From assembly GCF_000235425.2 (NCBI RefSeq), contig NZ_KI912266.1:6726553-6790552 (forward strand): DNA of 64,000 nucleotides, in the 5' to 3' direction. Origin of the DNA: Pseudofrankia saprophytica. Lineage in GTDB: Bacteria > Actinomycetota > Actinomycetes > Frankiales > Frankiaceae. The first letter of the stretch is position 1. Every line of letters starts with the position of its first letter. The notes below the pieces were generated by a model. It was not told the DNA's origin. It saw nothing but the letters and a program-made list of their open reading frames with translations, and did not search any database. This document shows, one piece after another, positions 52,471-59,635 of this stretch. The translations under genes were made by a program, and so were the position numbers.

Positions 52471-53778
52471 ATGGCATCGAACGAGTCACGCATCGTCGAT
52501 TTCGCAAGGAACGCAAGATTCTCGCACCCGACCTCACGGCGCTCGTTCCTCGCCGCCATGGGCGCCGCGGGCATCGCTCTGGGTATCGGTGCCTGCGGCT
52601 CGGACTCCGGCTCGTCGACCGCCGCGGCCGGGGCGAGCGGCGCGGCCGGCGGCGGCAAGCTGGTCCGGAAGCGCACCTTCTCCCAGGTCACCACGCTGTC
52701 CAACGACTACTTCGTCGCCTTCAACGACGGCGGCAAGCAGGCGATGGCCGCGTTAGGCGTGCCGATGTCCAGCCTGGAGGACCAGGGAAACGTCAACACC
52801 GCCATCGGGCAGGTGGGCAACGTCCGGACCTCCGGCGGCGCGTCGATCTTCGGCACCCCGGCGACCGAGGCCCAGGCCGCGGCCGTCACCAAGGCCTGCC
52901 AGGCCGCCGGCATCCTCTACGCCAGCTCGTACACCGCCCCGGCCTGGTACACCCCGGCGGACGCCGACAAGTGGGTCCGGTTCATCACGCCGCCGTCGGT
53001 GAAGATCGCGGAGGCCACCGCGCGCGCCATGTTCCAGAAGGTCGGCGGCTCCGGCACGATCATCCACGTCCCGGGCCAGAAGGGCTCGTCGGCCGACGAC
53101 CAGCGCACCGCCGGCCTGAACACGGCGCTGAAGGACTTCCCGAACATCAAGATCGTCACCGCGTCGCCCGGCAACTGGACCTCCGAGGACGCCCGGACCT
53201 CGCTGACGAACATCCTGCCGTCGGTCAAGGACTTCGTCGGCGTCTTCGCCCAGAACGACAGCGAGGCCGCCGGCGTCATCGCGGCGCTGGACGCCCAGCG
53301 CATCACCGGCAAGATCGTCGTCGGCTTCGACGGCAACAAGCAGAACATCCAGTACATCGCCGACGGCAAGCAGTACCTGACCAGCGCGACCGTCGGCGGC
53401 CTGACCGCCGGCCTGCTCGGGATCACCGTCTTCGACGTGCTGAACGACGTCGAGTTCTCCCTCCCGGAGAAGTTCATCTCCCAGGGCGCGCTGCTGGTCA
53501 CCCCCGAGACCGCCGACAAGGTGCTCTCCACCGTCTACGCGGACAAGCTGCCGTTCGAGTGGGAGCGGATGAGCAAGGCCCTGCACCCGAACGACTGGGA
53601 CCCGCAGACCCTGCTGAACCCGATCGACCCCAACGAGTACTACAAGGGCGTCCCCCAGGACGAGTACAAGCTGAACTCCGCCTGGGCGTCCGCCGACATC
53701 GCCTCGGTGCGGACCACCTACGCCAGCGCCTTCAAGTCCGGCCCGCTGCTCGAGTTCAAGGACAGCCTCGTCGCCTAG
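52471..53778 (+). CDS. Sugar-type ABC transporter substrate-binding lipoprotein
   Basis: 435 residues, ATG 52471 with AAGGAG eight bases upstream. The N-terminus has a Tat-like twin Arg (SRRSFLAAMG) with a hydrophobic core ending at GIGAC, a lipobox-like site, so it should be exported and lipid-anchored. The mature part is a type 1 periplasmic-binding fold (Peripla_BP_4): LSNDYFVAFNDGGKQAMAALG, ATEAQAAAVTKACQAAGI, FVGVFAQNDSEAAGVIAALDA and KIVVGFDGNKQNIQYIADGK. This is the ribose/galactose-binding family, though the ligand cannot be named. It is the first gene of the importer operon. A hairpin pair follows it. Confidence 0.93.
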   Translation: MASNESRIVDFARNARFSHPTSRRSFLAAMGAAGIALGIGACGSDSGSSTAAAGASGAAGGGKLVRKRTFSQVTTLSNDYFVAFNDGGKQAMAALGVPMSSLEDQGNVNTAIGQVGNVRTSGGASIFGTPATEAQAAAVTKACQAAGILYASSYTAPAWYTPADADKWVRFITPPSVKIAEATARAMFQKVGGSGTIIHVPGQKGSSADDQRTAGLNTALKDFPNIKIVTASPGNWTSEDARTSLTNILPSVKDFVGVFAQNDSEAAGVIAALDAQRITGKIVVGFDGNKQNIQYIADGKQYLTSATVGGLTAGLLGITVFDVLNDVEFSLPEKFISQGALLVTPETADKVLSTVYADKLPFEWERMSKALHPNDWDPQTLLNPIDPNEYYKGVPQDEYKLNSAWASADIASVRTTYASAFKSGPLLEFKDSLVA

Positions 53779-53783
53779 CCGGA

Positions 53784-53816
53784 CCCAGGCAGCACGCCTG
53801 GGCAGCGGACCCAGGC
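53784..53816 (+). terminator. Alternative hairpins between binding-protein and ATPase genes
   Basis: GCCTGGG (53796-53802) can pair perfectly with CCCAGGC on either side: upstream 53784-53790 (5-nt loop) or downstream 53810-53816 (7-nt loop). The region is an 18-bp direct repeat (GGACCCAGGCAGCACGCC) spaced 26 bp apart. It probably terminates or attenuates part of the transcripts, giving more binding protein than transporter, or protects the upstream mRNA. Confidence 0.5.
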
Positions 53817-53856
53817 AGCACGCCCAGGCACACAGAAAGTGGGGTGGATCCAGCCC

Positions 53857-57322: not shown

Positions 57323-57353
57323 TCAAGTGACGTCACGACGCAAGGAGACGGAC

Positions 57354-58187
57354 ATGGCGGGACGAGTCGAAGGCAAGGTCGCGTTCATCACCGGGGCCGC
57401 CCGGGGGCAGGGCCGCAGCCACGCGGTGCGGCTGGCCGAGGAGGGCGCCGACATCATCGCGGTCGACCTCTGCGCCGAGATCGACACCACCGACTACGCG
57501 GGGGCGACCCCCGAGGACCTCGCCGAGACCGTCGCGATGGTCGAGAAGCTGGGCCGCAGGATCGTCGCGGCCGAAGGGGACGTGCGCGACACCGACTCGC
57601 TGCGCGCCGCGGTCGACCGCGGGGTCGCCGAGCTCGGCCGGCTCGACATCGTCGTCGCCAACGCCGGCATCCTCTCGAACGGCCCCTCCCACGAACTGAC
57701 CGAGCAGACGTGGGGCGACATGATCGACATCAACCTGAGCGGAGTGTGGCGCACCTGCAAGGTCGCCATCCCGCACCTGCTGGCCACCGGCGACGGCGGC
57801 TCGCTCATCCTGGTCAGCTCGGTCGCCGGACTGCGCTCCTACTCGGGCGTGAGCCACTACGTCTCGGCCAAGCACGGGGTCGTCGGCCTGATGAAGACCC
57901 TGGCCCAGGAGCTGGCCCCGAACCGCATCCGGGTGAACACCGTGAACCCGACCCAGGTCGACACTCCCATGATCCAGAACGAGAGCATGTACCACCTGTT
58001 CTGCCCGGACATCCCCAACCCCACCCGGGAGGACTTCGGCAAGGCGTCGTCGGAGACGATCCTGCTGCCCATCGACTGGGTCGAGTCGATCGACGTGAGC
58101 AACGCCGTCCTCTTCCTCGCGTCGCAGGAGGCCCGCTACATCACCGGGGTCGCCCTGCCGATCGACGCCGGCGCCCTGGTCATCTGA
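57354..58187 (+). CDS. Second mycofactocin-type SDR oxidoreductase
   Basis: 277 residues, ATG 57354 with AAGGAG six bases upstream. Same family motifs as the preceding gene (GKVAFITGAARGQGRSHAVRLAEEG, VSHYVSAKHGVVGLMK, VNTVNPTQVDTPMI), with conserved blocks that suggest a tandem duplication with later divergence. The N-terminal extension of the first copy is missing. The pair may act on successive or related alcohols. It converges on the P450 gene with a 68-bp gap. Confidence 0.9.
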   Translation: MAGRVEGKVAFITGAARGQGRSHAVRLAEEGADIIAVDLCAEIDTTDYAGATPEDLAETVAMVEKLGRRIVAAEGDVRDTDSLRAAVDRGVAELGRLDIVVANAGILSNGPSHELTEQTWGDMIDINLSGVWRTCKVAIPHLLATGDGGSLILVSSVAGLRSYSGVSHYVSAKHGVVGLMKTLAQELAPNRIRVNTVNPTQVDTPMIQNESMYHLFCPDIPNPTREDFGKASSETILLPIDWVESIDVSNAVLFLASQEARYITGVALPIDAGALVI

Positions 58188-58255
58188 CCGGCGCGCCTCG
58201 GAGCGAGGCCGCTCAGCGGCGGGTTCGCGCCGGGGCAACGCGCCGGGGCAAGAGG

Positions 58256-59635
58256 TCAGGACAGGCTGGCGGGCAGGCGGCTCCAGCCGCGCAGGACGCG
58301 GTTCGCGCGGCGGCGGGCGCCCGGGAGCAGCGTCGCGTCCGGGTAGCGGTCGAAGAACGCGCGCAGGCCGACCTCGCCTTCCATCCGGGCCAGCGAGGCT
58401 CCCAGGCAGAAGTGCCGGCCGGCGGAGAAGGAGACGTGGTCACGGGCGTTCGCGCGGGCGACGTCGAACGTCGCCGGCTCGGCGAACACCTTCGGGTCCC
58501 GGTTGGCGCCGGCGAGGACGGTCACGACGTAGGTCCCGGCCGGAACGGTGACGCCGCGAAGGTCTAGCTCGCGGGTGCTGATGCGCCCGGTAAGGAGCAC
58601 CGGCGGATCGATCCGGAGGATCTCCTCGACCGCGCCCGGCCACAGTTCCGGCTGGCCGCGCAGCCGCCCGAGCTGCTCCGGGTGCCGGCTCAGCAGGGTG
58701 ATGCCGTTGCCGAGCAGGTTCACCGTGGTCTCGAAGCCGGCCGCGAGCACCAGCCCGGCGATCGACTTCAGCTCGCTCTCGTCGAGCCCGCCGTCCTGGT
58801 CGCGGGCCACGATGAGCTGGCTGAGCAGGTCATCGCCCGGCTCGTGCCGCAGCCAGGCGAGATGCCCGGTCAGCCACGACTCGAAGTCACGCATGGCGGC
58901 GGTGACGGACCGGAACTGCCGGAGACCCAGCCCGAAGTCGAGGCTCGGCGCGACGGCGGATCCCAGCGCCAGCACTCGGGGCCGTTCGCCGGGCGGGACC
59001 CCGAGAATCTCGGAGATCACGGTGACCGGCAACAGGGCGCAGTAGGTGGCGACCAGGTCAACGGGCTCGGCCGTGGCGAGGCCGTCGAGGAGCTCGGACG
59101 CTATCTGTTCGGTGCGCGCCCGCAGGTTCTGGACCGCCCGCGCGGTGAACACCCGGCTGACCAGCTGGCGGTGCCGGGTGTGCGTGGGTGGCTCCGTGAC
59201 CAGCAGCGACGGCGGCTCCATGGGATGCAGCACGTCGGGCGCGGTCCGGGCCATCAGAGCACCGAGGAGGCCACCGGCCCGGGCCGGGCTGCCGGCCCGG
59301 AAGTCACCGCTGGCGAGAACCTCCCGTGTGACGGCATGGTCCACGGTCAGGAACGCGAACCGACCGCGGTACAGCGGCCCGGCGGCGCGCACCTGTTCGA
59401 CGGCCTCCCAGACCTCTCCCCCGCCGGCACCCGCGACGATCAGCCGGCCCTGCAGGTCCCCCCGCCGCGCCGCCGCCCGCACGGCGACCCGGGGAAGCCC
59501 GTGGGCCGCGCCCCAGTACACGGCCGACCGGGCGTCATCACGCACCCGTCCCAACGGCCGCGGACACCGCTCGGCCGGCGGCGTCACCGCATGATCCTCG
59601 GTGGGAGTCGGTCGAATGCCCTGGTCCGTGGACAT
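58256..59635 (-). CDS. Cytochrome P450
   Basis: 459 residues, ATG 59635. Heme-binding Cys loop FSAGRHFCLGASLARME, I-helix AGFETTVN (acid-alcohol pair), ExxR EEILRIDPP, and PPTHTRHRQLVSRVFTARAV in the N-terminal region mark a soluble bacterial P450. It is longer than most soluble bacterial P450s (about 400) because of a basic, Ala/Arg-rich N-terminal extension of about 60 residues. No ferredoxin or reductase gene is adjacent. It converges on the mycofactocin SDRs, and the co-localisation of P450s with such SDRs suggests hydroxylated products as SDR substrates (inference). Confidence 0.93.
   Translation of the reverse strand: MSTDQGIRPTPTEDHAVTPPAERCPRPLGRVRDDARSAVYWGAAHGLPRVAVRAAARRGDLQGRLIVAGAGGGEVWEAVEQVRAAGPLYRGRFAFLTVDHAVTREVLASGDFRAGSPARAGGLLGALMARTAPDVLHPMEPPSLLVTEPPTHTRHRQLVSRVFTARAVQNLRARTEQIASELLDGLATAEPVDLVATYCALLPVTVISEILGVPPGERPRVLALGSAVAPSLDFGLGLRQFRSVTAAMRDFESWLTGHLAWLRHEPGDDLLSQLIVARDQDGGLDESELKSIAGLVLAAGFETTVNLLGNGITLLSRHPEQLGRLRGQPELWPGAVEEILRIDPPVLLTGRISTRELDLRGVTVPAGTYVVTVLAGANRDPKVFAEPATFDVARANARDHVSFSAGRHFCLGASLARMEGEVGLRAFFDRYPDATLLPGARRRANRVLRGWSRLPASLS

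Follow-up and report, generated by a model that had tools for sequence, protein, structure and literature searches.

A conserved nine-gene unit linking a CUT2-type importer to tandem mycofactocin-type dehydrogenases in Pseudofrankia saprophytica

Results

Gene content and conservation of the unit

We analysed a 64,000-nt stretch of Pseudofrankia saprophytica DNA (the window), in which nine genes are arranged as two divergent operons. The leftward operon encodes an XRE-cupin regulator, an acyl-CoA ligase and a fused TPP-dependent E1, and the rightward operon a hydrolase, a binding protein, an ATPase, a permease and two SDRs (SDR1 and SDR2). The features of the unit and of the adjoining P450 gene are as follows:

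46171-46836, minus strand: XRE-cupin transcriptional regulator, PuuR-like (NCBIfam PuuR 56.3 bits, under the cut-off of 211)
46928-48748, minus strand: AMP-forming acyl/aryl-CoA ligase (best NCBIfam match cyclohexanecarboxylate-CoA ligase, 378.7 bits, under the cut-off of 792.3)
48742-50802, minus strand: fused TPP-dependent E1 of the 2-oxoacid/acetoin dehydrogenase type (alpha + beta), 686 aa, with a GDG...NN TPP motif; start codon placed by comparison with homologues
50803-51277, no strand: divergent control region of 475 bp between the E1 and hydrolase starts
51003-51021, plus strand: putative operator site 1, TGTCCAGTGGGACTTGACA (chance expectation in the window 0.00)
51072-51090, plus strand: second putative operator site, the inverted repeat TGTCAAGTGCCACTTGACA
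51278-52222, plus strand: alpha/beta hydrolase, S15/CocE-like (PF02129, 55.8 bits)
52471-53778, plus strand: substrate-binding lipoprotein, CUT2 type (Peripla_BP_4, 109.9 bits)
53839-55389, plus strand: ABC ATPase, CUT2 type, two nucleotide-binding domains and two Walker A motifs
55386-56447, plus strand: CUT2-type ABC permease (BPD_transp_2, 107.1 bits)
56444-57322, plus strand: mycofactocin-type SDR1 (TIGR03971, 416.0 bits; cut-off 300)
57354-58187, plus strand: mycofactocin-type SDR2 (TIGR03971, 413.3 bits, read from a longer frame starting at 57300; cut-off 300)
58256-59635, minus strand, opposite to SDR2: P450 (PF00067, heme motif FSAGRHFCLG)

The order XRE-ligase-E1 / hydrolase-SBP-ATPase-permease-SDR1-SDR2 is identical at the eight loci found, in eight genomes from two families: three loci within the genus (the present one, G004 and G007) and five in the other family (Aeromicrobium ginsengisoli, G676, G437, G422 and G575). 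The G422 contig stops directly past the permease gene, so that SDR counts for the unit rest on seven loci. Regulator, ligase, E1 and hydrolase are kept at all eight, with identities in the other seven of 57-83% for the regulator and 78-95% for the hydrolase. At the present locus the stop codon of the permease and the GTG start of SDR1 share 4 bases, and the start of the ligase overlaps the end of E1 by 7 bases. The 4-bp permease/SDR1 overlap recurs in 7/7 SDR1-holding loci, the present one included, a conservation that rules out a chance overlap. The first-pass annotation had pointed to this overlap and had read import and oxidation as one programme; both points are borne out, the second by the conserved gene order, the conserved overlap and the shared divergent control region. 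Its gene set holds for the importer and the SDRs and finds no support for the P450, and it had missed the leftward part of the unit (46171-52222), which comprises the hydrolase, the TPP-dependent E1, the acyl-CoA ligase and the regulator. A limited search of the open-access literature returned, among the matches listed, no description of the nine-gene unit, and the window contains no tRNA.

The P450 gene is convergent with SDR2, with 68 bases between the gene ends, and no copy of the operator was seen beside it. Its heme motif is found at none of the seven other loci of the unit (G422 ends before that side), where the best tblastn score for the P450 is 26.6 bits. Strand, missing operator copy and absence elsewhere thus rule out the P450 as a conserved member of the unit, contrary to the earlier proposal that it belongs to the module; a link particular to this strain may nevertheless exist.

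Regulator and divergent control region

The divergent region carries two to three copies of the repeat TGTC[CA]AGTnnnACTTGAC[AG] at all eight loci, with up to two mismatches allowed. The pattern was derived without two of these loci. Of 180 fetched loci, 16 contain an exact match, and every one of these is a copy of one of the eight places of the unit. The XRE-cupin regulator presumably binds the putative operator repeats. Simple scans of two stretches for promoters and terminators gave none.

Tandem SDRs and mycofactocin genes

That the tandem SDRs are of the mycofactocin type, as annotated in the first pass, agrees with their scores, which are the two highest among 10 proteins above the TIGR03971 cut-off in the genome. 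Both proteins contain TGAARGQG, NAG, the SS/catalytic Ser and YxxxK motifs. The nearest PDB relatives of SDR1 are TIGR03971 carveol dehydrogenases (5ej2, 3uve), with which it has the catalytic residues in common, and its alignment to 5ej2 is free of gaps through the family's extra loop near the NAD site. Four non-member SDRs serve as a weak control over this loop: two lack residues there and two have some. According to PMC5264612, the loop-covered NAD of the family shows no exchange on the NMR time scale.

In the SDR tree, the seven SDR1 members of the unit form one group (support 100/99) and the seven SDR2 members another (100/98-99), adjoining the SDR1 group at 98/97, and each group spans both families. 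What sets the unit apart from other TIGR03971 SDRs is that two neighbouring copies are tied to an importer of their own and to a set of hydrolase, E1 and ligase. Among 79 loci with relatives of the SDRs, a CUT2 permease is present in the fetched stretch of only one, that of Aeromicrobium, which is the nine-gene unit itself; a general habit of CUT2-SDR pairing in the family is thereby rejected. A second, separate case was seen in another genus of the same family (G012), where a CUT2 set unrelated to that of the unit (permease 30%, ATPase 37%) lies directly upstream of a mycofactocin-type SDR.

We searched for mycofactocin genes elsewhere in the genome, the check that the first pass had proposed, and found mftA (50.1 bits; cut-off 25), mftB (94.7; 33), mftC (600.6; 265) and mftE (245.7; 172) above their cut-offs, so that the reading is not refuted by missing mycofactocin genes. 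No mftD exceeds its cut-off (best 279.9 against 470.85). The mftF matches are split over two frames and lie in one frame in the relative G004; the split may be an assembly error, and complete maturation of the cofactor in this genome is uncertain. Across carriers of the unit, mftC is above cut-off in 6/8 and not in G007 (850 contigs) or G422. It is also present in 5/5 same-genus genomes that lack the unit, and its co-occurrence with the unit therefore says little.

Importer

Binding protein, double ATPase and BPD_transp_2 permease together make up a CUT2 importer. The binding protein bears a twin-arginine motif (SRRSFL) and a lipobox (IGAC), and the best NCBIfam match of the ATPase is AraG (401.5 bits, below the equivalog cut-off of 689). 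Peripla_BP_4, the double ATPase and BPD_transp_2 are common to the monosaccharide importers RbsABC and AraFGH, whereas all importer proteins of the unit score below the equivalog cut-offs. PDB matches of the binding protein stop short of its C-terminal part, and an AlphaFold2 model built from two sequences was unusable (mean pLDDT 41.7). In an alignment via 2ioy, four ribose contacts of RbsB (Asn13, Arg141, Asn190 and Asp215) appear kept, and the contacts Asp89-Arg90, Asn64 and Gln235 appear not kept. The region of these non-kept contacts holds the stretch SSYTAP[AP]WYTPADADKW, invariant in 8/8 orthologues of the binding protein.

Ligase, E1 and hydrolase

E1 scores 328.1 bits against the PDH E1 beta subfamily (cut-off 321) and shares its TPP motif and its alpha and beta modules with E1 enzymes of the acetoin dehydrogenase/PDH type (AcoAB-like). 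In contrast to those, alpha and beta are fused in one chain, and no E2, E3 or lipoyl acceptor was recognised among the nine genes. The hydrolase scores 126.8 bits against the AHL lactonase UilS, far below the 400-bit cut-off. Across 396 genomes of the phylum, 15 relatives of the hydrolase reach E 1e-60 or better. We inspected the surroundings of four of these: for two (55% and 49% identical) the stretch also contains E1 genes, at distances of ~1 kb and ~7 kb, and the stretches of the other two (41-42% identical) contain no E1 gene.

The Sphingobium plasmid pMI2 has a similar divergent layout with a hydrolase 59% identical to that of the unit, E1 alpha and beta, and an AMP ligase; the hydrolase is followed by an SDR fragment that is only ~33-35% identical, a TetR gene takes the place of the XRE-cupin gene, and genes for a TonB receptor and a lipoyl protein lie close by. 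The likeness of pTK3 (Sphingobium) is partial and comprises the hydrolase, E1 alpha, the AMP ligase and a short SDR. Unlike the nine-gene unit, the fetched stretches of both plasmids lack a CUT2 importer. The plasmid contexts of the hydrolase, binding-protein and E1 relatives gave no pointer to the substrate, and nothing bearing on the unit was seen at the far end of plasmid MM-1.

Discussion

The importer, the two mycofactocin-type SDRs, the hydrolase, E1, the ligase and the regulator probably form one regulated unit for the catabolism of a hydroxylated compound. On this reading, the lipoprotein and the CUT2 transporter would import a small hydroxylated compound, whose secondary alcohol groups SDR1 and SDR2, the likely products of an old tandem duplication, would oxidise by means of tightly bound NAD that mycofactocin would re-oxidise. 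The hydrolase would next open an ester, a lactone or an activated C-C bond in the ketone product, the TPP-dependent E1 may act by cleavage or decarboxylation of an alpha-keto or alpha-hydroxyketone fragment, and the ligase would activate the acid. The XRE-cupin regulator would control the unit through the repeats in the divergent region. Relatives of the SDRs often lie beside a P450 and seldom beside a CUT2 permease, which suggests that the alcohol is imported here and not made on site. A narrower version is tentative, and we hold it to be considerably less probable than the unit as such: an imported diol or polyhydroxylated ring would be oxidised twice by the duplicated nicotinoprotein SDRs, and the (di)ketone broken by the acetoin-cleaving-type E1 and the hydrolase to yield CoA thioesters.

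We weighed four other explanations against this reading. The SDRs could be conventional dehydrogenases of sugars or polyols that depend on NAD(P) and carry the mycofactocin label by family inheritance only. This would fit an importer of the type known for ribose and arabinose, the lack of an mftD above cut-off and the split mftF in this genome, and the two carriers in eight without mftC above cut-off; we nevertheless consider it unlikely, as both SDRs exceed the TIGR03971 cut-off by >110 bits and lead the 10 family members of the genome, and the loop-covered NAD of the family is described as non-exchanging on the NMR time scale (PMC5264612). It is quite unlikely, too, that a simple pentose or hexose is the substrate and the unit a new sugar route: the CUT2 type of the importer and the four apparently kept contacts would agree with it, but the other presumed contacts appear lost, the binding protein has its own invariant stretch in all eight orthologues, and the nine genes include no recognised sugar kinase, isomerase or aldolase.

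Import and destruction of a lactone-type signal by the hydrolase acting as a UilS-like lactonase is the least probable of the four. The match to UilS speaks for it; against it stand the low score of that match, the presence of E1 and a CoA ligase, which suggest full catabolism, and the CUT2 importer, which would be unusual for acyl lactones. A route formed by importer, both SDRs and the P450, in which the P450 acts on the substrate or the product at least in its own strain, is improbable to the same degree as the sugar route. Opposite strand, convergent orientation, missing operator copy and absence of the heme motif from the other loci (G422 being cut) argue against it, while the P450 gene adjoins SDR2 and the nearest plasmid relative, which lies on M. 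avium pP7a, has a P450 gene directly upstream. We gave this route more weight because, among 79 SDR relatives elsewhere, 44 have a P450 motif within 3 kb. P450-SDR pairing is thus common in the SDR family at large, though not in the nine-gene unit.

Regulated catabolism of a hydroxylated compound, the reading we prefer, bears on a wider question. Actinobacteria carry many mycofactocin SDRs, of which the present genome alone has 10 above cut-off, and their substrates are mostly unknown. If the diol or ring version is true, a peptide cofactor would be hard-wired to one importer and to one carbon-carbon cleavage. Since two SDRs are here tied to a single importer, a single regulator gene with visible repeats and few downstream enzymes, the substrate question becomes directly testable: the ligand of one lipoprotein, or the inducer of one control region, would name what the SDRs oxidise.

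Gene content and extent of the unit

The right-hand part of the locus encodes a complete CUT2-type ABC importer, comprising a lipoprotein, a double ATPase and a permease, followed by two tandem SDRs.

Features of the Pseudofrankia saprophytica locus (window positions)
50803-51277, divergent region between the E1 and hydrolase genes
52471-53778, forward strand, binding lipoprotein of the CUT2-type ABC importer
53839-55389, forward strand, double ATPase of the importer
55386-56447, forward strand, permease of the importer
56444-57322, forward strand, SDR1, in tandem with SDR2
57354-58187, forward strand, SDR2, in tandem with SDR1
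58256-59635, reverse strand, P450, convergent with the SDRs

SDR1 and SDR2 score 416.0 and 413.3 bits against TIGR03971, the mycofactocin-type SDR family (cut-off 300), and are the top two of the 10 SDRs above this cut-off in the genome. Catalytic residues are kept in both, and SDR1 aligns without gaps to carveol dehydrogenase (5ej2) across the extra-loop stretch. PMC5264612 describes NAD in TIGR03971 SDRs as buried beneath this extra loop, with no exchange by NMR, and mycofactocin as their presumed external redox partner.

Comparison between genomes shows a conserved order of nine genes: an XRE-cupin regulator, an acyl-CoA ligase and a fused TPP-dependent E1, and divergently from these a hydrolase, the binding protein, ATPase, permease, SDR1 and SDR2. 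This order is present in three of the eight genomes of the genus (G000 to G007), as counted from a binding-protein search of 393 genomes of the class (three matches at E 1e-30). A search of 341 genomes from the family of Aeromicrobium ginsengisoli adds five carriers; in one of these, G422, the contig ends just past the permease and leaves the SDRs outside its sequence. Gene by gene, the P. saprophytica genes are 51-81% identical to their counterparts in the second family. A sixth match in that family, at 30% identity and with a different gene set, is not the unit. The flank right of SDR2 differs among P. saprophytica, its congeners G004 and G007, and Aeromicrobium, and the flank left of the regulator differs among P. 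saprophytica, G004 and Aeromicrobium. The first-pass annotation had drawn one module of importer, SDRs and P450 across 52471-59635; importer and SDRs stand, and its edges shift, since comparison with relatives extends the unit leftwards to the regulator and the P450 is not conserved.

Evidence for a single programme

The permease stop and the SDR1 start overlap by 4 bp, an arrangement kept in all seven loci containing SDR1. The divergent region carries two to three copies of the repeat TGTC[CA]AGTnnnACTTGAC[AG] in all eight loci, counting up to two mismatches. The window holds copies at 51003-51021 and 51072-51090 and none elsewhere at this threshold (expected 0.00), and all 16 of the 180 fetched loci with an exact match are copies of the same eight places. 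Six loci served to define the pattern, and the remaining two also showed it; being related to the six, these two are not fully independent of them. By its position, the XRE-cupin regulator is the presumed partner of this putative operator; a simple promoter scan of the locus found nothing.

We further placed the SDRs in a tree of 95 sequences: 14 of the unit, three others, and 78 from the 79 loci of near relatives (the remaining locus is the Aeromicrobium unit). SDR1 forms one group across both families (support 100/99), as does SDR2 (100/98-99), and the two together form one group (98/97). Because the separate groups each span both families, the duplication seems, from the sequences, to predate the unit's spread, and the retention of both copies suggests two different jobs. 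Overlap, repeat and tree groups together bear out the earlier proposal that import and oxidation form one programme.

The P450 had been counted as part of this module, and a strain-specific use of it together with importer and SDRs would draw on the company that related SDRs keep: among 79 loci of near relatives (L053-L131), many of them mycobacterial and related to one another, 44 have a P450 heme motif no more than 3 kb from the matched SDR, and on M. avium plasmid pP7a the nearest plasmid relative of the SDRs comes straight after a P450 gene. Against this, the P. saprophytica P450 lies on the opposite strand with no operator copy near it (window scan, up to two mismatches), and the seven other loci yielded neither an ORF with the heme motif nor a tblastn match above 26.6 bits, the cut G422 contig being uninformative in both searches. 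We consider such a use unlikely, though the counts from near relatives made it somewhat less so and slightly lowered our confidence in the main reading. A P450 and a mycofactocin-type SDR often stand together elsewhere, and in this unit the importer takes the P450's place. The alcohols that this SDR group oxidises may usually be products of P450s.

Other arrangements were seen nearby and in other genomes. A TetR regulator with an SbtR-like C-terminal domain lies beyond the P450 (window 61126-61770). On Sinorhizobium chiapasense plasmid pB (L150), a CUT2-like importer, a P450, regulators, a 44% identical hydrolase and CoA-transferase genes occur together. A second importer-SDR pairing occurs in G012, from another genus of the same family, where an unrelated CUT2 importer directly precedes a mycofactocin-type SDR with 68% identity to SDR1 (L044:10900-15704), followed, by inspection, by an amidohydrolase, luciferase-like proteins, a second SDR, a ligase, a thiolase and an acyl-CoA dehydrogenase.

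Mycofactocin genes

The cofactor genes, which the first-pass annotation had proposed to seek elsewhere in the genome (9.98 Mb, two contigs), were recovered in part. Clustered on contig 2 near base 227,000 are mftA (50.1 bits, cut-off 25), mftB (94.7, cut-off 33) and mftC (600.6, cut-off 265); mftE (245.7, cut-off 172) lies on contig 1 near 2,744,850, apart from the others, with SDR, luciferase-like and ETF-like genes as neighbours by inspection. No mftD exceeded its cut-off in this genome (best 279.9 against 470.85). Matches to mftF fall in two frames (L002:9013-10715, contig 2 near base 225,000), and in G004 both pieces lie in a single frame; the split could be a true frameshift defect or an assembly error. 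Judged by these profile matches, the pathway is present in part. Two of the eight carriers, G007 (850 contigs) and G422, lack an mftC above cut-off, which may reflect draft gaps. Since mftC exceeds the cut-off in all five genomes of the genus without the unit, it is expected anyway and lends little weight to a link between unit and mycofactocin. Two mftC above cut-off occur in G575 and in A. ginsengisoli, one of the latter on the unit's contig.

Proposed pathway and related cassettes

In alignments, the binding protein appears to keep part of the RbsB ribose contact set and to lack the Asp-Arg pair, suggesting that its ligand is hydroxylated but is not ribose; a structure model of the protein was unusable. 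The hydrolase falls in the S15/CocE-like group, the E1 carries a TPP motif with no E2 recognised beside it, and the ligase is nearest to cyclohexanecarboxylate-CoA ligase, well under cut-off. The importer would bring in a hydroxylated substrate, SDR1 and SDR2 would oxidise it at alcohol groups in two reactions, giving a ketone or diketone, and hydrolysis, TPP-dependent cleavage by E1 and CoA activation by the ligase would follow. We regard this reading of the unit as probable; gene content and arrangement are observed directly, and we infer the order of steps and the substrate.

Among the open-access papers listed, many of which do not mention mycofactocin, we found no description of such a unit, which is weak evidence of novelty; its parts are of known kinds, and their combination and conservation appear new.

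Sphingobium plasmid pMI2 carries hydrolase, E1 and ligase together with an SDR fragment, and pTK3 a partial set of hydrolase, E1 alpha, ligase and a short SDR, with no E1 beta seen in the pTK3 stretch. The cassettes (L148, L175; pMI2, pTK3) adjoin IS6100 copies, as does the short SDR after the hydrolase, and the pTK3 stretch also contains linB. As the trio recurs on these plasmids, in part on pTK3, it looks like a core to which actinobacteria added the importer and the two SDRs.
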